From NCBI RefSeq assembly GCF_040362765.1, contig NZ_BAABWK010000001.1, positions 969,501-1,033,500 of the forward strand: DNA of 64,000 nt. The letters are read 5' to 3'. Shown one piece after another: positions 5,540 to 38,808 of the stretch. The translations under genes and the position numbers were made by a program. Origin of the DNA: Pyruvatibacter sp. HU-CL02332 (GTDB taxonomy: Bacteria > Pseudomonadota > Alphaproteobacteria > CGMCC-115125). How positions within the stretch are numbered: the first letter of the stretch is position 1; every line of letters starts with the position of its first letter. The notes under the pieces are model-generated. The model had not been told where the DNA came from. It did no database searches and was given only the letters and a program-made list of their open reading frames with translations.

Positions 5540-7147
5540 ATGCAACAAGCGTCAGGACTGGATAATCTGGGGGCGGAAGTCACACCGGCAATAGGTCTTC
5601 CCGTCACCGGCGTATGGATAGCTCAGCCGGACACACGGGCTGATGCCCGCGTTGTCCTGTATGTGTATGGCGGCACATTCTCGCTCAATCGTGGGCCCAT
5701 GCAGGAAATCGTGGCTGGCCGTATTGCCACCCATGCCCGCGCCCGCGTCCTGCTGTTTGACTATTCCCTCGCCCCCGAGCAGCCCTTCCCACTTGCCATT
5801 GAGGATGTGACAGCCACCTATCTGGCCCTGCTTGAACAGGGTCATGACCCGTCAAAAATCGTCGTGATGGGCGATACGTCGGGCGCAGGCATTGCCCTCG
5901 CCGCCCTCATTTCCCTGCGCGATCAGCAACACCCCATGCCCGCAGGCTTTGTGGCCCTCACGCCGCTGGTGGACCTCACTTTTTCCGGCGGCACCTATGT
6001 GAGCAACATCCGCAGCAATGGCTCCACGTCTGACGTGGAACTGATCATGACCTTGGCCTTTGACTATCTGCAGGGCGCTGATCCGCGACACCCCTTGGCC
6101 TCCCCGGTCCTGGCGGACCTTGCAGGCATGCCCGAGATAGAGATCCACGCTGACGTCAAAGATGTGCTCTACGACGATGCCATCATGCTGGCCGAAAAAC
6201 TGCGCGGTACCGGCGGCAAGGTCAATCTCTATGAGTGGGACGGGCTGGCAGACACGTGGCAGCGCCTTGCACCGCTTTCGACCCAGAGCACCGCCGCCCT
6301 CGCCCGCATCGGCCAGTTCGTCCGCAAACAGACAGGCAGCCAGGCGCCGGCCGGCAAGGCGGATGCGGACAATCTCATCACCTCTTATCAGGGCCTCATC
6401 AAGGAATTTATACAGCCCCATACGCGCGAGCGCGTGGACGAGATCTTTGAGTGGTCCCGGGCCCATGGCCCTGAATGGGTCTGGCCTTTCATCCAGCGCC
6501 GCCTGAAGCACGGTGCGTTGGTAACGCAGGATCAGGTGGAGCGGGACTGGCTCACCATGCTGTTCACCGAAGCATCAGACGGAATGCTTCTGCTCAGCGC
6601 CAGCCGGCATATCCTTCTGTCAAACAGACGTGCCCGCGACCGCCTGGAAACCGAAACGCCGTTCCTCCTCAAGAACGGCCGCCTCTTCGGCACAACCGAG
6701 GCGGATGACGACGCCTTGCAGACCGCGCTTGATGCACTCTTTCAGGCATCCCCCAACAACCTGCAACGTGCCGTGCGCCTTGAGGGCGTGAAGGGCAAAC
6801 GCGGCCATACGGGCCCGACGCTCCTGCGCGGCGAACGCCTTCAACAGGAAAGCGAGGGCCGCGGCGTACCGCCGGTGGTCTTGCTCAGATTGCTGACCCC
6901 GCCGGACACAGCCGACATAGACGAAACAGCCCTGGTCACCTGGTATGGCCTGTCAAAGAAAGAAGCAAAGCTGGCGGCAGCCTTTGCGACCGGTGCCAGC
7001 CTTGCAGGTTTTGCAAAGGACAATGGCGTGTCGATCACCACGGTCCGCACCCAGTTTGCCAATCTGAAGGCCAAACTGGGCGCAAGTGATCAGGCGGCCG
7101 TCGTACGCCATGTGTTGCAGGCGGCCACCCACACATCTTTTCCGTAG
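5540..7147 (+). CDS. Fusion regulator: degenerate HSL-type alpha/beta-hydrolase, PAS-like segment, LuxR helix-turn-helix
   Basis: A 535-residue cytoplasmic protein. Residues ~20-260 follow the hormone-sensitive-lipase esterase fold (DYSLAPEQPFPLAIED is canonical), but the catalytic motifs are altered. HGGG reads YGGT (residues 43-46), the nucleophile elbow GDSAG reads GDTSG (Thr113), and the catalytic His position reads Asp238 in WDGLADTWQ; the acid Asp208 is kept. Residues ~340-450 resemble a PAS-type sensor (EASDGMLLLSASRHILLSN). Residues ~465-530 form a LuxR-type helix-turn-helix (LSKKEAKLAAAFATG, VSITTVRTQFANLKAKLG). This suggests a ligand-binding pseudo-esterase controlling transcription. 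It is transcribed divergently from the autotransporter and convergently with cynS, and its target is unknown. Confidence 0.75.
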   Translation: MQQASGLDNLGAEVTPAIGLPVTGVWIAQPDTRADARVVLYVYGGTFSLNRGPMQEIVAGRIATHARARVLLFDYSLAPEQPFPLAIEDVTATYLALLEQGHDPSKIVVMGDTSGAGIALAALISLRDQQHPMPAGFVALTPLVDLTFSGGTYVSNIRSNGSTSDVELIMTLAFDYLQGADPRHPLASPVLADLAGMPEIEIHADVKDVLYDDAIMLAEKLRGTGGKVNLYEWDGLADTWQRLAPLSTQSTAALARIGQFVRKQTGSQAPAGKADADNLITSYQGLIKEFIQPHTRERVDEIFEWSRAHGPEWVWPFIQRRLKHGALVTQDQVERDWLTMLFTEASDGMLLLSASRHILLSNRRARDRLETETPFLLKNGRLFGTTEADDDALQTALDALFQASPNNLQRAVRLEGVKGKRGHTGPTLLRGERLQQESEGRGVPPVVLLRLLTPPDTADIDETALVTWYGLSKKEAKLAAAFATGASLAGFAKDNGVSITTVRTQFANLKAKLGASDQAAVVRHVLQAATHTSFP

Positions 7148-7170
7148 ATCAGGCTTGCAGCTCCGGCGGC

Positions 7171-7611
7171 CTAGTACTTCTTGAACTTCAGGAACTTGCC
7201 GGACATCACGATTTTCACACGATCGCCATTGGGGTCCGGCTGGCGTGAGATATCCATATCGTAATCGATGGCCGACATGATGCCGTCGCCGAACTCTTCC
7301 TCGATCAGCTTCTTGAACGTTGTGCCGTAGACCTGCACGATTTCATACAGGCGATAGATCAACGGGTCAGTTGGCACATCCATGCCCAGCGAGCCGCGAC
7401 TTGGAATCTTGGCAAGGCCTTTTGCAGCTTCAGGAAGACCCAGAATGTCAGCCGCCTTCTTGGCGGCCTCCTCCGGCAAAGCCATCTGGCCCAGCAGTGC
7501 TGCCGTTGTGAAGACCGGTGACAGACCAACCCCTTCAGCTACCTGCGCATAGGTCAGACCTTTTTCGTCCATTTTGTCTTCAATGGCCTGGGTCAGTTCA
7601 AAACGATCCAT
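7171..7611 (-). CDS. cynS: Cyanate hydratase (cyanase)
   Basis: Cyanase converts cyanate and bicarbonate to ammonia and carbon dioxide, allowing cyanate to be used as a nitrogen source and detoxified. The 146-residue chain is normal length for the family. The N-terminal helical DNA-binding-like part (TYAQVAEGVGLSPVFTTAALLGQ) and the conserved catalytic C-terminal half are both present. By comparison with the E. coli enzyme the active-site residues are Arg87, Glu90 (YRLYEIVQVYG) and Ser113 (IMSAIDYD). It is the last gene of the minus-strand transporter operon, 83 bases after the ATPase, so the transported substrate most likely includes cyanate. Confidence 0.95.
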   Translation of the reverse strand: MDRFELTQAIEDKMDEKGLTYAQVAEGVGLSPVFTTAALLGQMALPEEAAKKAADILGLPEAAKGLAKIPSRGSLGMDVPTDPLIYRLYEIVQVYGTTFKKLIEEEFGDGIMSAIDYDMDISRQPDPNGDRVKIVMSGKFLKFKKY

Positions 7612-7694
7612 GTTGTGGAACTCCTTTTTGGGTGCGTGCCACTAGAGCGCGCGTCTGTGTGTTTGAGTGCGGCGTGCTGTGCTGCGCCGGCGCT

Positions 7695-8636
7695 TCAGCC
7701 CCCGGCTGCCTGCAGGGGCGCGTCTGACTTTCCCGGCGCTGATGTCTCCTCCGCTGCCGCAGTGTCCACGGACAGAACGCCGGCTGCCCCCGGAGACACG
7801 AGTGACGGGTTCTTCCGGTCATGCCCATTGGCAGCTACTTCGTCGTCAAACGTCTTGGAACGCGTAACGAGGAAATCCATCAGGTGATTGCGCATCGGGT
7901 AGAAGCGCGGGTGCTTGAACATGCTCTCCCGCGTCCGATCCCGCGGCAGCGTATTGACCACGATTTCGGCAATGCGGGCGTCCGGCCCATTGGTCATCAG
8001 AACAATCTTGTCGGCCAGATACAGCGCCTCATCCACATCATGGGTGATCATGAAGGTGGTCTGCTTGCGCGCGTCACAAATCTCCAGAACCTCATCCTGC
8101 AGCCCGCCACGGGTCAGCGCATCAAGGGCCGAGAACGGTTCATCCATCAGCAGCACATCTGGCTCCAGGCTCAGCGCCCGGGCGATGCCCACGCGCTGCT
8201 TCATGCCGCCTGAAAGCTGAGATGGTTTGCGATCAACCGCATCTGACAAGTTAACCAGCGCCAGATACTTCAACGTATGTTCTCGTATCTGCTTGGGCAA
8301 CCAGGACGGATTGCGTGACCGCACCGCGAGTTCGATATTTCCAAGCGCCGACAGCCAGGGCATCAACGCATGCCCCTGAAAGATCACCGCCCGGTCAAGA
8401 CTCGGCCCGGAAATCTCTTTGCCATTGACGATGATCCCGCCAGTGGTTGGCGTCTCGAGACCCGCCAGAATGTTGAGCAGAGTCGATTTTCCGCACCCCG
8501 AGTGGCCAACGACACACACGAACTCGCCTTCTTCAATAGAGAGCCAGAGGTCCTCGAAGACGGTCATTGTTCCGCGGCCACCCGGCGTGGGGTATCGCTT
8601 GGCGAGGCCTTCAATACTGATGAGTTTCTTGCTCAT
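7695..8636 (-). CDS. Nitrate/cyanate-type ABC transporter ATP-binding protein
   Basis: A 313-residue ABC ATPase of the NrtD/CynD/SsuB group, energising import at the inner membrane. Walker A is GHSGCGKST, the Q-loop is VIFQGHALMPWL, the signature is LSGGMKQR, and Walker B is DVLLMDEPFSALD with the switch ITHD. After the ATPase core there is a ~50-residue tail rich in Ala/Ser/Glu. The start at 8636 is supported by the AAGGG upstream and the conserved MSKKLISIEGL; a longer frame to 8699 would overlap the permease gene. It sits between permease (13-base gap) and cynS in one operon. Confidence 0.88.
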   Translation of the reverse strand: MSKKLISIEGLAKRYPTPGGRGTMTVFEDLWLSIEEGEFVCVVGHSGCGKSTLLNILAGLETPTTGGIIVNGKEISGPSLDRAVIFQGHALMPWLSALGNIELAVRSRNPSWLPKQIREHTLKYLALVNLSDAVDRKPSQLSGGMKQRVGIARALSLEPDVLLMDEPFSALDALTRGGLQDEVLEICDARKQTTFMITHDVDEALYLADKIVLMTNGPDARIAEIVVNTLPRDRTRESMFKHPRFYPMRNHLMDFLVTRSKTFDDEVAANGHDRKNPSLVSPGAAGVLSVDTAAAEETSAPGKSDAPLQAAGG

Positions 8637-8649
8637 GAAGTTATTGCCC

Positions 8650-9501
8650 TTAATCCGTGTACGAAACGCGCCGCTGGAAGAACGCGACCAACAGGTCAAG
8701 CACCATTCCGATCAGCCCGATGAAGAGGATGGCAGCGATAACGTTGGTGATGGAAAGGTTGTTCCACTCATTCCAGACGAAGTAGCCAATGCCTGTGCCG
8801 CCCACGAGCATCTCCGCAGCCACGATGACCAGCCACGCAATACCGATGGAAATGCGCATGCCCGTCAAAATGGTCGGCGCCGCCGCAGGCAGAATGACGC
8901 TGATGGCTGTGCGCAATGAACTCAGCTCAAGCGTGCGCGCCACATTGATGTATTCACGGCGAACGGCGCCGACACCAAATGCCGTATTGATCAGCATCGG
9001 CCAGAGAGAGCAGATGAAAATGACGAAGATCGCACTCGCCATGGAATCTTGAATTGTGTAGAGCGCCAGTGGCATCCAGGCGAGGGGCGAAATCGGCTTG
9101 AGCAACTGGATGAACGGGTCCAGCGCCTTGAACAGCAAGGGGCTCATGCCGATGACAAAGCCAAGCGGTATGGCCACCAAGGCCGCCATACCAAAACCAA
9201 GCAGCACCCGCATCACGGAATACGCAAGCTGGATACCGATGCCCTTGTCGTTCGGACCTGCATCATAGAACGGGTCCATCACGTGGCGGGTAAGCTCACC
9301 AAAGACCTCACCTGGGGGCGGAAAGGCGTTGCCACCCTTTGCCTGCGGCCCAAGAAGGGCCGCAAGCTCCGGGTCCATCCCCGCATCACTGGGGCCTGTT
9401 CCACTCGTGCTGAGGAGCTGCCAGGAGAACACAAACAGTCCAAATAGCAGCACCGAGAGAAGGGCAGCACGCAGGCCTATGGGGATTGAGTCAACGCGCA
9501 T
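8650..9501 (-). CDS. Nitrate/cyanate-type ABC transporter permease
   Basis: A 283-residue inner-membrane permease of the NrtB/CynB/SsuC family with about six transmembrane helices, beginning with LLSVLLFGLFVFSWQLL at residues 14-30. The EAA-loop region is seen as MRISIGIAWLVIVAAEMLVG, typical of this family. A periplasmic insert of ~50 residues (AGMDPELAALLGPQAKGG onward) follows the first helix. The start has an excellent GGAGG ribosome site. It is two bases from the substrate-binding protein gene and 13 from the ATPase gene, so the three are co-transcribed and co-translated. Confidence 0.88.
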   Translation of the reverse strand: MRVDSIPIGLRAALLSVLLFGLFVFSWQLLSTSGTGPSDAGMDPELAALLGPQAKGGNAFPPPGEVFGELTRHVMDPFYDAGPNDKGIGIQLAYSVMRVLLGFGMAALVAIPLGFVIGMSPLLFKALDPFIQLLKPISPLAWMPLALYTIQDSMASAIFVIFICSLWPMLINTAFGVGAVRREYINVARTLELSSLRTAISVILPAAAPTILTGMRISIGIAWLVIVAAEMLVGGTGIGYFVWNEWNNLSITNVIAAILFIGLIGMVLDLLVAFFQRRVSYTD

Positions 9502-9503
9502 CC

Positions 9504-10907
9504 CTACCTCCGGATCGCAAAAGAGTTGACGTATTCTTCGGGCAGGTTCGGGTCGAATGTCTTGCCCATCACCTCATAGGAGTCATACGTCTCGACCGGC
9601 GGCGTCAGCCCCATGTCGGTCATGACCTTCTGGGCATCTGTCGCCAGATACACCTGCTCGGCCACGCCCTTGTAGTCCACATCACCGGAGATATATCCCC
9701 AGCGCTTCATCTGCGTCAGAATCCAGATCGCCATGGAGTGATATGGGAACGGATTGAAGTCGATCCGGTCCGGCACTTTCTGAACATTGCCAAGACCATC
9801 CGCAAAGGTACCGGTCAGCACTTGCTCGACCACCGTCACAGGCTGGTTGAGATAGTTGCGTGGCGAAATGGCAGCAGCCACTTCCTTGCGGTTCTCCTGC
9901 GCCGACGCAAATGCCGTAGCATCGATAATCGACTTGTAGAGCGCAATGAACGTATTGGGCATTTCATCCACAAATGCCTGGCTGGCTGCGAACGCACAGC
10001 ATGGATGCCCGTCCCAGATTTCCTTTGTGAGCTTATGAATGAAGCCCACACCGTCATAAACGGCACGCTGGTTGAACGGGTCAGGCGCGAGATATCCGTC
10101 CACGTTGCCAGCGGCAAGGTTGGCCACCATCTCGGGCGGCGGCAGCACACGGATCTGAATGTCCGTATCGGGATCAAGGCCATGTTCAGCCACATAGTAG
10201 CGCAACAGGAAGTTGTGCATGGAATAATCGAATGGCACGGCGAACTTGAAACCCTTCCACTTGGAAGGATCGTCGTTCTTGTCCTTGTGCTTCGTGGCGA
10301 GGGTAATGGCCTGTCCGTTGATGTTTTCGACAGCAGGCATGGTCCAAGGCACCGCCGTTGAACCGGCGCCCATGGTGATCGCCAACGGCATCGGCGTCAG
10401 CATATGTGCTGCGTCATACTCACCGGACAATGACTTATCGCGAGCCACAGCCCAGCCGGCCGTCTTGATGACATCCACATCAAGTCCGTATTTTTCATAG
10501 AACCCCATCGGGCTCGCCATGATGATGGGCGTCGCACAGGTGATGGGAACAAAGCCCACGGACAATTTGGTTTTTTCAAGTTGGCCAGACATCTCCTGAG
10601 CCACTGCCTTGGCGGCTCCCATGGGGAACACCTGACTGAGGGCAGCAGCCGCCGTAGAGGCGCCAACTGCCGTCAGGAAATTGCGGCGCGCCATGTCGGT
10701 CCCGAACACCGCTTTCATCACAGCGGATTCGATGTGACGCGACAGAATTTCTTCGGAGTTGACCTTCTCCTCGGCAACGTCAAGCGGCGCCACTTCTGCA
10801 TCAACAGCACTTACCGTGTCGTGCTCCGCCTGCGAATGGTTTCCCCCGCAGGAGCAGGGGTTCCACAGTTTGGCTTTCGCATCAAAGGGGTCCTTATCGA
10901 AGCTCAT
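9504..10907 (-). CDS. CmpA/NrtA-family substrate-binding protein with N-terminal Cys-rich extension and Tat signal
   Basis: A 467-residue binding protein of the nitrate/bicarbonate/cyanate uptake family. The mature part (~residues 105-467) has the family features LSVGFVPITCATPIIMA and YLAPDPFNQRAVYDG. Export is by the twin-arginine route: MARRNFLTAVG starts near residue 72 and is followed by an Ala-rich hydrophobic stretch. Unusually, ~70 residues precede the Tat motif and include PCSCGGNHSQAEHD, a CxCGGxH motif that could bind metal. First gene of the transporter-cyanase operon, preceded by a long regulated leader. Nitrate versus cyanate specificity cannot be decided from sequence alone; the adjacent cyanase favours cyanate. 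Confidence 0.85.
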   Translation of the reverse strand: MSFDKDPFDAKAKLWNPCSCGGNHSQAEHDTVSAVDAEVAPLDVAEEKVNSEEILSRHIESAVMKAVFGTDMARRNFLTAVGASTAAAALSQVFPMGAAKAVAQEMSGQLEKTKLSVGFVPITCATPIIMASPMGFYEKYGLDVDVIKTAGWAVARDKSLSGEYDAAHMLTPMPLAITMGAGSTAVPWTMPAVENINGQAITLATKHKDKNDDPSKWKGFKFAVPFDYSMHNFLLRYYVAEHGLDPDTDIQIRVLPPPEMVANLAAGNVDGYLAPDPFNQRAVYDGVGFIHKLTKEIWDGHPCCAFAASQAFVDEMPNTFIALYKSIIDATAFASAQENRKEVAAAISPRNYLNQPVTVVEQVLTGTFADGLGNVQKVPDRIDFNPFPYHSMAIWILTQMKRWGYISGDVDYKGVAEQVYLATDAQKVMTDMGLTPPVETYDSYEVMGKTFDPNLPEEYVNSFAIRR

Positions 10908-10987
10908 ATGCTTTTACTCTCCTGTTTGCCGGCTTGGGTGGTCTGTTCCTGTCCAGGGAGACCTGTTCCCGCCGTGCGATCGGCAAC

Positions 10988-11040
10988 AAAAAAAGCCGCG
11001 TTCCAGCCCCGCGCCATAAAGCGCGGTTCGGAAGCGGCTT
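10988..11040 (-). terminator. Intrinsic attenuator terminator in the transporter leader
   Basis: On the minus strand the sequence folds into a stem with outer arms AAGCCGC/GCGGCTT plus TTCC/GGAA and an inner stem CCGCGC/GCGCGG around TTTATG, followed immediately by seven T. It lies ~80 bases upstream of the substrate-binding protein start, between promoter and gene, so it must be overcome for expression. A competing 6-bp hairpin (GAAGCG/CGCTTC, 11031-11046) would use the 5' arm of this terminator and could be the antiterminator form. Confidence 0.85.
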
Positions 11041-11049
11041 CGCTTCGGA

Positions 11050-11103
11050 GGGCCCGTCCTCGGACCCGGTATGTCACAGACTGCTCTCGTCCTTGAGGCA
11101 GTC
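11050..11103 (-). promoter_or_regulatory. Dual-hairpin ANTAR target (NasT antitermination element)
   Basis: Two hairpins precede the attenuator on the minus strand. Hairpin 1 (11079-11103) pairs GACTGC with GCAGTC and CTC with GAG, with one bulged A, around the hexaloop AAGGAC; it has the A1 and G4 loop bases conserved in ANTAR-binding RNAs. After an 11-base linker, hairpin 2 (11050-11067) pairs GGGTCC with GGGCCC around GAGGAC, sharing AGGAC and G4 but with G at position 1. Two hexaloop hairpins followed by a terminator is the known architecture recognised by NasR/NasT/EutV-type ANTAR proteins. The nasT gene is directly upstream. Confidence 0.8.
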
Positions 11104-11116
11104 ACCCTCCCTTATT

Positions 11117-11133
11117 AGCAACCGGTGTGCCAA
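11117..11133 (-). promoter_or_regulatory. Sigma-54 (RpoN) promoter of the cyanate/nitrate transporter operon
   Basis: The minus strand reads TTGGCACACCGGTTGCT, matching the -24/-12 consensus TGGCAC-N5-TTGC exactly. Transcription would begin near 11106, a few bases before ANTAR hairpin 1, so the hairpins would form the very 5' end of the transcript. Sigma-54 dependence fits nitrogen-limitation control by an NtrC-type activator, but I see no convincing NtrC site in the ~130 bases between here and nasT. Confidence 0.75.
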
Positions 11134-11268
11134 GAAATCGGCATGCGCATGAAACGCTGATGGGAAAAGGGTTTGGCACTGGTAGAGATAACGCGACGCC
11201 GGGGCTTCTCGGGCGCGTTGACCAACAACTAGCCAGCCGCTGCTCACAAAGCAGGCACAAACTCGAAA

Positions 11269-11856
11269 CTAGAGTCCAACCTTCGAGGCAACGATCACGC
11301 TCTCGGCAATTTCAACAAGCGGGCGCTTTTGATCCATGGACGCCTTGCGCAGCAGACCATAGGCATCCGGCTCCGACAGGCCACGCTGCTCCATCAAGAT
11401 GCCCTTGGCCTGCTCGATGGTCTTGCGCTGCGCCAGTTCAGTGGACAGCTCTTCAACCTGGCTTTCCAGCTTGTGGAACTTGTTGAACCGGGCAATGGCA
11501 AGATCAACGATCGGGCGAATGCGCTCCGGCTGCATGCCATCAACCACATACGCACTGACGCCTGCATCCATCGCAGCGCGGGCAGTATCCGAGTCGCTTT
11601 GATCGACAAACATCACCACCGGCCGCTTGACCTGCTGGGACACGCGAAACATCTGTTCCACCGTGTCGCGGCGCGGGTTCTCAAGGTCAACGATGATGAC
11701 AGAGGGATTGATCGCAGCGATGCGGCCGACCAGATCAACCGTATTGGAAATCACAGTCACTTCCGCGTATCCGGCCCCGTTGAGGCCAGCCGTAATCAGG
11801 TCTGCCCGCTCGGGCACCTGATCAATCACAACAATGGACAGCGTCTTTTCAGGCAT
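11269..11856 (-). CDS. nasT: NasT-type response regulator with RNA-binding ANTAR domain
   Basis: A 195-residue antitermination regulator. Residues ~1-120 form a receiver domain (LSIVVIDQVPERADLI, VIIVDLENP, VVMFVDQSDSD). Residues ~135-190 are the ANTAR three-helix bundle (TIEQAKGILMEQRGLSE, AYGLLRKAS), which binds tandem hexaloop hairpins in leader RNA. The ATG at 11856 has GGAGAG upstream; the longer frame to 11898 lacks support. The gene lies immediately upstream of, and on the same strand as, the transporter-cyanase operon whose leader carries a matching RNA target. No NasS sensor partner is encoded in this window, so how ligand information reaches NasT is not visible. Confidence 0.88.
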   Translation of the reverse strand: MPEKTLSIVVIDQVPERADLITAGLNGAGYAEVTVISNTVDLVGRIAAINPSVIIVDLENPRRDTVEQMFRVSQQVKRPVVMFVDQSDSDTARAAMDAGVSAYVVDGMQPERIRPIVDLAIARFNKFHKLESQVEELSTELAQRKTIEQAKGILMEQRGLSEPDAYGLLRKASMDQKRPLVEIAESVIVASKVGL

Positions 11857-13870: not shown

Positions 13871-14626
13871 ATGACGGTTGCGCTCTACGCCTTCACCTGC
13901 GGACATCTCACCATGCCCTTCAAGTCTTTTCTTGAAGGCGAGGAAGGCACGCTGAAAGTTCCCGTGCCGGCCTATCTGGTGGTGCACGAAAAGGGATCCG
14001 TGCTGTTCGACACCGGGCTCAATCCGCATGCGGTCCATGATGACACGCGCTATCGCGGTCAGGTGCACAAGTCTCACGAGTTTCATGTGAGCCAGCATGA
14101 GCTGCTGCCTGCCCGCTTTGAAGACGCCGGGCTGGACATCTCCACGGTCACGCACCTTGTGAATTCTCATCTCCACTTCGACCATGCCGGTGGCAACCAG
14201 CTGGCGCCCGACGTACCTGTCATCGTGCAAAAGCGCGAGCTCGAACACGCACGCGAAGCCGGCACGCCCTTTGGCTATGTGGCTGAGGATTTTGAAACCG
14301 GCCAGTCATTCAACATGATCACCGGTGAGCTTGATCTGTTCGGAGACGGCACCGTTGTCTGCATCCCGACACCAGGCCATACACCGGGACATCAATCGCT
14401 CAAGGTCGCGACAGACAAAGGCCAATTCGTGCTGGCAGGAGACGCCTGCTACCTGCGCCGGTCGCTGGACAATCTGCACCTGCCCCGGTTTCGTCATGAC
14501 AAAGAGGCAATGCTCGCGTCTCTGCATACGTTGAGAGATCTGCAGCAGCGCGGCGCGACCATCATGTATGGTCATGACCCTGAATTCTGGAAAGACGTTC
14601 CACAGGCGCCAACGCGGCTTGGCTAG
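13871..14626 (+). CDS. MBL-fold hydrolase, AHL-lactonase (AttM/AiiA) family
   Basis: A ~251-residue metallo-beta-lactamase-fold enzyme. The dinuclear metal site motif HLHFDHAGG (HxHxDH) lies near residue 101, the next histidine in PTPGHTPGH and the bridging Asp in VLAGDACY. The arrangement and size match N-acyl-homoserine lactonases, which open the lactone ring of quorum signals, though other lactones or esters are possible. No signal peptide is visible, so it is cytoplasmic. The ATG at 13871 was preferred because the earlier TTG overlaps the previous stop. It is convergent with the MFS gene, whose stop overlaps by four bases. Confidence 0.72.
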   Translation: MTVALYAFTCGHLTMPFKSFLEGEEGTLKVPVPAYLVVHEKGSVLFDTGLNPHAVHDDTRYRGQVHKSHEFHVSQHELLPARFEDAGLDISTVTHLVNSHLHFDHAGGNQLAPDVPVIVQKRELEHAREAGTPFGYVAEDFETGQSFNMITGELDLFGDGTVVCIPTPGHTPGHQSLKVATDKGQFVLAGDACYLRRSLDNLHLPRFRHDKEAMLASLHTLRDLQQRGATIMYGHDPEFWKDVPQAPTRLG

Positions 14627-38016: not shown

Positions 38017-38808
38017 ATGGCAGACGTTACTCTCTACGAACACCCCCTCTCGCCCTATGCCCAGAAGTGCAAAATCGCATTGCGCGAAAAAGACGTCGCG
38101 TTCACGGCAAAGATGCCGGACTCAATCGGCACCGGCCTTGCGGGCGGCGAGTTTCGCGACGCGTCCCCCCGCATCGAAGTTCCGGCGCTGATCCATGGGG
38201 ACGTGACCCTCTTCGAGTCGACCATCATCCTTGAATACATCGAAGAAACCTGGTCCCGACCCGCCCTGCTGCCCAAGGCACCGGCAGAGCGCGCCCACCT
38301 GCGCATGCTCGAAGAAGTGATGGATACCCACTACGAGGCCATCACCTGGGCATTGGGCGAAATCCATTTCTTCAAGCGGGCCACCGGTCCGGATGCGGAC
38401 AGGTTGACGGCCGCGGCCGCAGAACAGCTGGCACAGGCCCACGCCTGGCTCGAAACCCATCTGGCAGACAATCAATGGTTCGGGGGCGACATGTTCGGCT
38501 ATGCCGACTGCGCCATCGTACCGCTCATCAACGGCGCTGCAGGCTTTGACCTTGGCCCGAAAGCAACAAGCCCCCTTGGCCAGTGGCTGGCGCGCGCCAA
38601 CGAACGCCCCTCAGTCAAACCGACCCAGGAAGAGGCCGTCGCCTCCCTCAGCGACATGGCACAGGTTGGCGACCTCATCTCAACCGGCCAGTTCAAGCGC
38701 CAGTACCGCGATCATCGCCTTGAGTGGATGGTCCGCTCCGGCGGACTCGACATTGTGGTCGACGGCATCAAGAACGACACCATTCGTTTCGTCTGGCCCT
38801 TCGCGTAA
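38017..38808 (+). CDS. Glutathione S-transferase family protein
   Basis: A 263-residue GST. The N-terminal thioredoxin-like domain starts TLYEHPLSPYAQKCKIALREK, with Ser/Tyr near the glutathione thiol and the cis-Pro/SNAIL-type region VPALIHGDVTLFESTIILEYI. The C-terminal helical domain has the N-capping FGYADCAIVPL motif. The ~40 residues beyond the usual end (QYRDHRLEWMVRSGGLD onward) are an extension. The ATG at 38017 is 13 bases after the second CMD gene, so it belongs to the same operon. Confidence 0.85.
   Translation: MADVTLYEHPLSPYAQKCKIALREKDVAFTAKMPDSIGTGLAGGEFRDASPRIEVPALIHGDVTLFESTIILEYIEETWSRPALLPKAPAERAHLRMLEEVMDTHYEAITWALGEIHFFKRATGPDADRLTAAAAEQLAQAHAWLETHLADNQWFGGDMFGYADCAIVPLINGAAGFDLGPKATSPLGQWLARANERPSVKPTQEEAVASLSDMAQVGDLISTGQFKRQYRDHRLEWMVRSGGLDIVVDGIKNDTIRFVWPFA

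Follow-up and report, generated by a model that had tools for sequence, protein, structure and literature searches.

A sigma-54 promoter and a candidate ANTAR-controlled attenuator ahead of an operon for cyanate uptake and breakdown

Gene and feature content of the cyanate locus

The window, i.e. the whole 64-kb stretch of DNA analysed here, carries on its minus strand a gene for a NasT-type regulator followed by a promoter, a leader with several hairpins and a terminator, and the genes of an ABC transporter and a cyanase. In the direction of transcription the features are:

11269..11856, minus: NasT-type regulator with receiver and ANTAR domains (PF03861 78.9 bits, PF00072 37.4 bits), ending 136 nt upstream of the promoter
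11117..11132, minus: sigma-54 promoter TGGCACACCGGTTGCT (-24/-12), the sole perfect match in the window; the sister genome keeps the element with a different spacer
11079..11103, minus: hairpin P1, GACTGCCTC-AAGGAC-GAGaGCAGTC, hexaloop A1/G4, an extra hairpin, upstream of the canonical pair, near the expected 5' end of the RNA
11050..11067, minus: hairpin P2, GGGTCC-GAGGAC-GGGCCC, hexaloop G1/G4, first of the canonical ANTAR pair
11031..11046, minus: hairpin P3, GAAGCGAAGCCGCTTC, GAAGC-GAAGCC-GCTTC, hexaloop G1/G4, the putative antiterminator, overlapping the 5' arm of the terminator
10988..11040, minus: intrinsic terminator AAGCCGC...GCGGCTT plus seven T (stem 11040-10993, T run 10994-10988)
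9504..10907, minus: periplasmic binding protein of the NMT1_2/NrtA type, with a Tat-like RR motif after an N-tail of about 73 residues that contains CSCG
8650..9501, minus: ABC transporter permease, NtrB type (TIGR01183 234.9 bits, cut-off 209.05)
7695..8636, minus: ABC transporter ATPase, NrtD type (TIGR01184 295.6 bits, cut-off 291.8)
7171..7611, minus: cynS, cyanase (TIGR00673 equivalog 161.9 bits, cut-off 113.3; PF02560 over cut-off)

Two starts were set by eye, that of nasT at MPEKT (open reading frame listed from 11898) and that of the ATPase gene at the ATG of MSKKL (listed from 8699). An earlier sequence-only reading of this DNA had placed nasT directly upstream of the promoter and transporter-cyanase genes downstream of the leader. 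Both assignments hold, since the two NasT domains are over cut-off and the NMT1_2 binding protein, permease, ATPase and cynS are all over curated cut-offs. The permease and ATPase families are named after nitrate in NCBIfam; as the transporter adjoins cynS, its substrate is probably cyanate.

Structure of the leader

The three hairpins and the seven-T terminator described in the sequence-only reading were all found at their minus-strand positions, but their roles have to be reassigned. That reading had paired hairpins 1 and 2 as the ANTAR target. The rule given in sections of PMC3369931, PMC3369936 and PMC8934654, two hexaloop hairpins of which the second overlaps the terminator, fits P2 and P3 instead and leaves P1 as an extra element. 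The loops of P1 and P2 lie 33 nt apart and neither hairpin overlaps the terminator, and they were rejected as the canonical pair. The loop spacing of P2 and P3 is 20 nt, inside the 18-27 nt of the published architecture, and P3, which had been marked earlier as a possible antiterminator, forms the second canonical hairpin and has 10 nt (11040-11031) in common with the terminator stem, so that only one of the two can form. P3 can also be drawn with a 6-bp stem and the tetraloop AAGC, and RNAfold gives 4-base loops in both P2 and P3 because G1 and C6 can pair.

The claim of A1/G4 hexaloops stands for position 4, which is G in P1, P2 and P3, and fails for position 1, which is A in P1 only and G in P2 and P3. 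A1 is part of the loop rule as stated in sections of the same three papers (PMC3369931, PMC3369936, PMC8934654). In the EutV structure described in PMC8934654, the protein contacts G4 but not A1, which was suggested to prevent pairing across the loop; G1 together with C6 makes such pairing possible in P2 and P3. The G1 loops may therefore count against the leader, or possibly be a sign of altered specificity.

The 126-nt leader folds at -63.9 kcal/mol, compared to -47.3 +/- 3.7 for dinucleotide shuffles, none of which (0 of 200) was as good. A simple terminator scan of the window returned one site against 1.3 in shuffles, which is not beyond chance, and Rfam at gathering cut-offs found two tRNAs in the 64-kb window and no match to the leader. 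The evidence for the leader that goes beyond chance is its conservation and context rather than the terminator scan or Rfam.

Conservation and fit to other ANTAR leaders

Within the genus, one sampled relative (G001) also carries the operon, in the same arrangement, with 77% identity in NasT and 90% in the binding protein. Its loops read AAGGTC (P1), AAGGGC (P2) and GAAGCC (P3, identical). The P1 stem differs by three compensatory changes (A-U to G-C, C-G to G-C and U-A to C-G) and one single-sided change (G-C to G-U), with no pair broken; because no pairing scan was involved in the choice of P1, the compensatory changes are clean evidence for its RNA structure. Pair counts over the set of leaders are circular, as most of its rows had been picked for their pairing, and do not enter the evidence. 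The P2 stem is identical in both genomes and thus uninformative on structure, P3 shows one A-U to G-U change, and in the terminator the stem base and T run are kept while the upper stem has diverged yet remains paired. The loops and stems, on whose conservation in related genomes the earlier reading depended, are kept in this one, as are the promoter and the terminator.

A scan of the collected loci for a terminator preceded by two R1/G4 hexaloop hairpins, their loops spaced by 18-27 nt, returned 24 rows, where a mononucleotide shuffle yields 0.5 on average; the cyanate leader is among them as P2 plus P3. Without the loop-letter condition there were 38 arrangements, 24 of them with G4 in both loops. 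Among these G4/G4 arrangements position 1 is A in 17 of 24 for each loop, and the window leader is the sole G/G case.

A held-out covariance model (R2) was trained on 15 ANTAR leaders that do not belong to cyanate loci, two of which lie in the nitrate locus of the window genome; six of the 24 rows (L012 twice, L047, L188, L192 and one row of L122) were left out of models R1 and R2 by eye. Against 83 sources (1.05 Mb) it recognised the window leader with 30.0 bits (E 0.0022) and the sister leader with 29.8 bits, so that a covariance search, proposed with the earlier reading, does group the cyanate leader with ANTAR-type leaders. The five distinct best matches were those of L035, L034, the leader of a porin-like gene at the sister locus L209, the window and the sister, all ANTAR-type leaders, and later matches scored 25 bits or below. 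At E up to 2 the leaders of L037, L038 and L055 were not found, and that of L039 appeared only at E 1.0. When the held-out model was run on the whole genome, scoring covered 150 of the 1811 first-look candidates; both nitrate-locus leaders were reported and the cyanate leader was not. A model trained with the cyanate leader included gives three genome matches at E 0.002 or better, namely that leader and the nitrate-locus pair, all of them training members, and the fourth match has E 0.3. A weak match at 38083-38120 on the plus strand of the window (22-24 bits, E 0.04 at best) is probably due to chance.

By its spacing, G4 loops, terminator overlap and model match, the leader appears to be of the ANTAR dual-hexaloop type, with G in place of the usual A at position 1 of the paired loops. 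It is very improbable that the hairpins are chance structures within a terminator that ends the nasT transcript. Such an origin would agree with a terminator that is not by itself beyond chance in a simple scan and with the G at loop position 1, but it leaves unexplained the compensatory changes, the held-out model match and the enrichment of hexaloops before ANTAR-linked cyanate operons (see below).

The sigma-54 promoter and the nitrate locus of the same genome

The perfect -24/-12 promoter noted in the earlier reading is present at 11132-11117 and is kept in the sister genome, where it reads TGGCACGACCGTTGCT. The pattern TGGCAC-N5-TTGCW has one perfect match in 64 kb, the cyanate-leader promoter; at up to one mismatch there are 4 matches in the window compared to 4.96 in shuffles, and hence the one-mismatch count is not above chance. 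Since the -12 C is at 11118, the start is expected at 11106, three bases 5' of P1, as had been predicted. Control by nitrogen status, also proposed earlier, would fit the rpoN and ntrC genes of the genome, but no match to an NtrC-like consensus was found between nasT and the promoter (10894 to 11387). NtrC or another activator would drive the promoter.

The genome encodes one NasS and two NasT proteins, the latter 45% identical to each other. The second NasT lies in a nitrate locus (L207), with the following order in locus coordinates:

6934-7533: nasT
7530-8666: nasS, followed by a sigma-54 element, hairpins, a terminator and a porin-like gene

The L207 hairpins are GATCGC-AAAGTT-GCGATT, CGGGTCC-AAGGAC-GGACCCG and ATTGGC-AACGCT-GCCGAT, and the transporter genes come after the porin-like gene, behind a second ANTAR leader. 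The nitrate-locus and cyanate leaders have the same promoter-hairpin-terminator layout, and the start of the P2 stem matches that of CGGGTCC-AAGGAC-GGACCCG. Porin-like genes are also seen near the sister's cyanate operon: a gene so named by eye lies just upstream of the cyanate-linked nasT (L209, 13098-14345, minus) and is preceded by an ANTAR leader with a one-mismatch sigma-54 element (14438-14493, minus). In the window genome a similar gene is instead part of the nitrate locus (L207, 8939-10237), where an ANTAR leader precedes it.

A perfect sigma-54 element precedes 11 of 22 ANTAR leaders, both nitrate-locus leaders included, and an element with at most one mismatch precedes 16 of 22 (122 nt upstream scanned; 0.005 and 0.105 in mononucleotide shuffles, respectively), the 22 leaders being the 24 arrangement rows minus 2 overlapping pairs. 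The double layer was therefore rejected as a novelty in itself. For nitrate assimilation, an ANTAR layer combined with Ntr control is already described in PMC5424462, and PMC12316311 predicts sigma-54 promoters for cyanate lyase genes as well as for NasT genes. As the combination is common, and published for nitrate, only the cyanate target is unusual. The earlier reading knew of no description of two-layer control of a cyanase operon; within the open-access literature this is borne out for the target and not for the double layer, which is common in nitrate-type leaders.

Cyanate operons in other genomes

The survey of cyanate loci covered the best 80 of 577 confirmed loci. cynS was present in 74 of the 80; in the remaining six the contig stops about 3.0 kb or less from the start of the binding-protein gene. 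Five of these best 80 loci (L035, L037, L038, L039 and L055) have an ANTAR gene immediately upstream, that of L039 having been found with the window NasT and the L037 ANTAR protein as queries. For L034, counted as a sixth case, the contig starts within a leader that has four hexaloop hairpins and a terminator. A single ANTAR gene was found in the genome, cut off at the edge of another contig; the last bases of that other contig match the L034 start, and from this match we infer that gene and leader are adjacent. The PF03861 search covered the genomes of 20 of the 80 loci, and for the other 60 the absence of a linked ANTAR gene is by tblastn. Among 385 sampled genomes of the class, 31 encode the binding protein (E 1e-60 or better), and an ANTAR neighbour occurs only in the two of this genus.

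The eight ANTAR-linked cyanate leaders contain 18 R1/G4 hexaloop hairpins in their last 200 nt compared to 1.3 expected, and the 74 leaders without a linked ANTAR gene contain 8 compared to 5.4 expected, none of them with two. The window leader contributes three to this count, one of them downstream of the terminator; P1 was left out because of its bulge. The L038 and L055 leaders have several R1/G4 hexaloop hairpins and no intrinsic terminator evident by eye, so that control there may not be attenuation.

The cyanate leader could in principle be read by the NasT of the nitrate locus, with the linked NasT redundant or otherwise employed. The near-identical start of the P2 stem and a hairpin spacing equal to that of the nitrate-locus leaders would suit such cross-talk, which we nevertheless consider quite unlikely, because each of the two operon-bearing genomes of the genus keeps the linked NasT next to the operon, and ANTAR genes adjoin cyanate operons in other lineages too. 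The likely partner of the leader is the NasT whose gene ends 136 nt upstream.

In the 74 unlinked operons a sigma-54 element was found within 250 nt as a perfect match in 25 and with at most one mismatch in 44 (0.0 and 0.65 after shuffling), and sigma-54 control was consequently rejected as a special property of the window operon. Before the cyanate-linked ANTAR genes outside the genus for which upstream sequence was present, there was one perfect element, two with one mismatch and two cases with none. At L033, L036 and L041 a long divergent gene upstream of the ANTAR-less operon resembles, by eye, PAS-type sigma-54 activators. As in the window protein, a long N-tail with a CxCG/A motif often precedes the Tat-like RR of the cyanate binding protein; the motif was seen in 53 of 80 loci (L033-L112), and the tail was about 55-115 residues long in 20 such proteins inspected.

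The linked NasT and its missing NasS

NasT normally works with NasS, and no NasS gene was found at the locus beside the cyanate-linked NasT. In a tree of 57 ANTAR rows (5 of 62 were dropped, L182-L185 and L035, of which four were distant and one partial), 41 have NasS within 300 nt, and NasS is absent for seven cyanate-linked rows and nine others. Some of these nine sit before transporter-like genes. For the NasT-type genes of L174, L175, L177, L202, L136, L176 and L194, which have no close NasS, the next NasS-like match is 317-600 nt downstream, and these are candidates for other regulators without a linked NasS.

In the best tree the NasT of the window and that of the sister genome lie within the NasS-linked clade (100/98), which contains none of the other cyanate-linked ANTAR rows. 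Two independent origins of the ANTAR-cyanate linkage were given up as a clean claim, since a single clade is not rejected (p-AU 0.173) and several rows of the tree have long branches. The solved sequences closest to the window NasT include 1s8n (Rv1626), 6wsh, 4akk (NasR) and AmiR (1qo0). In the alignment the window NasT keeps the receiver aspartate and, like other NasT rows, has a replacement at what is presumably the position of the usual receiver lysine. The other cyanate-linked ANTAR proteins have the aspartate replaced (Y, Y, H, E, N), and phosphorylation is therefore unlikely there. Searches for NasS in eight genomes found full NasS-like proteins in five. In the other three (G386, G387 and G391), metagenome assemblies of unstated completeness with a cyanate-linked ANTAR gene, no NasS was found and the cyanate binding protein was the sole match, so that NasS would not be needed for the ANTAR-cyanate pairing in these genomes.

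Proposed regulation of the operon

Taken together, we consider it probable that this cyanate uptake and cyanase operon is controlled by a sigma-54 promoter and an ANTAR-dependent attenuator. Nitrogen limitation, presumably via NtrC, would open the promoter, and transcription by sigma-54 RNA polymerase would begin near 11106. Roughly the first 80 nucleotides of the transcript would fold into the tandem hexaloop hairpins P1, P2 and P3. Active NasT would bind the G4 loops as they emerge (P2 and P3, possibly P1) and hold P3, so that polymerase reads through into the transporter and cynS genes; without active NasT the terminator would form and the transcript stop. The start site, the binding of NasT and the read-through are predictions made from the sequence. 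NasT itself might be activated through a shared, nitrate-responsive NasS, without any sensor, or by a separate cyanate-linked sensor.

The first option would make the operon a satellite of the nitrate regulon, the nitrate-locus NasS sequestering both NasT proteins and the switch responding to nitrate. It draws on the presence of one NasS for two NasT in the genome, on the position of the genus's cyanate-linked NasT inside the NasS-linked clade, on P2 stems that are nearly alike at the two loci, and on the genome's three strong model matches, two of which are nitrate-locus leaders and the third the cyanate leader. We hold it to be possible though somewhat doubtful, as the two NasT share only 45% identity and three other genomes with a cyanate-linked ANTAR gene have no NasS found in their metagenome assemblies.

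If the linked NasT were sensorless and active by default, only the sigma-54 promoter would be regulated and the attenuator would track NasT abundance. Consistent with this are the lack of a linked NasS, the observation in parts of the Paracoccus literature that free NasT is the active form, and the sigma-54-like element that suffices alone in most cyanate operons (44 of 74). Still, this seems unlikely, given that the sister genome retains both terminator and hairpins, neither of which an always-open switch would need.

A separate sensor would fit a broader and rather doubtful scenario, which we offer tentatively: cyanate operons would repeatedly have gained their own NasS-independent ANTAR antiterminators, the adjoining pseudo-receiver ANTAR protein would answer cyanate or a related signal through some sensor, and in the genus of the window the class would have arisen from a nitrate-type NasT. 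One candidate for the sensor is the binding-protein precursor, with its long N-tail and CxCG motif before the export signal, because the binding protein is the only NasS-like protein found in the three cyanate-ANTAR genomes mentioned above.

Comparison with known systems

If the proposed reading is true, cyanate joins the nitrogen sources under ANTAR antitermination, and the nitrate attenuator has been redeployed under a paralogous regulator whose gene has no NasS neighbour. The one locus then bears on two questions, namely the role of NasT without its sensor and the separation of RNA targets between two NasT proteins in a cell, and the A to G change at loop position 1 is relevant to the RNA requirements of ANTAR domains. 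In the open-access full-text literature we found no paper that joins ANTAR control to cyanate, and the main text of PMC3369931, its supplementary target list apart, has no word beginning with "cyan".

The closest likeness is to the NasT/NasS nitrate leaders of Azotobacter, Paracoccus and Bradyrhizobium, which, according to the published accounts, combine a receiver-ANTAR NasT with leader hairpins that precede an intrinsic terminator and with downstream genes for nitrogen-source use, and have general nitrogen control as a second layer. The locus described here differs in its cyanate target, in having no adjoining NasS and in the G1 of both canonical loops. The Klebsiella NasR-nasF and Enterococcus EutV-eut leaders are described in parts of the literature as likewise having two G4 hexaloop hairpins, the second overlapping the terminator, with an A29-A53 spacing of 24 nt in eutP (portions of PMC3369931 and PMC3369936) compared to 20 nt here, and the Klebsiella NasR operon is also described as being under NtrC. 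In contrast to the cyanate leader, these systems have other sensor domains and A1 in both loops, and the upstream hairpin P1 is an addition here. ANTAR-less sigma-54 cyanate operons share the transporter-cyanase order behind a sigma-54-like element (44 of 74), but have neither an attenuator nor a linked ANTAR gene. The mechanism itself is known; the cyanate target appears to be new, and the regulator without a linked sensor and the relaxed loop position set the locus apart.
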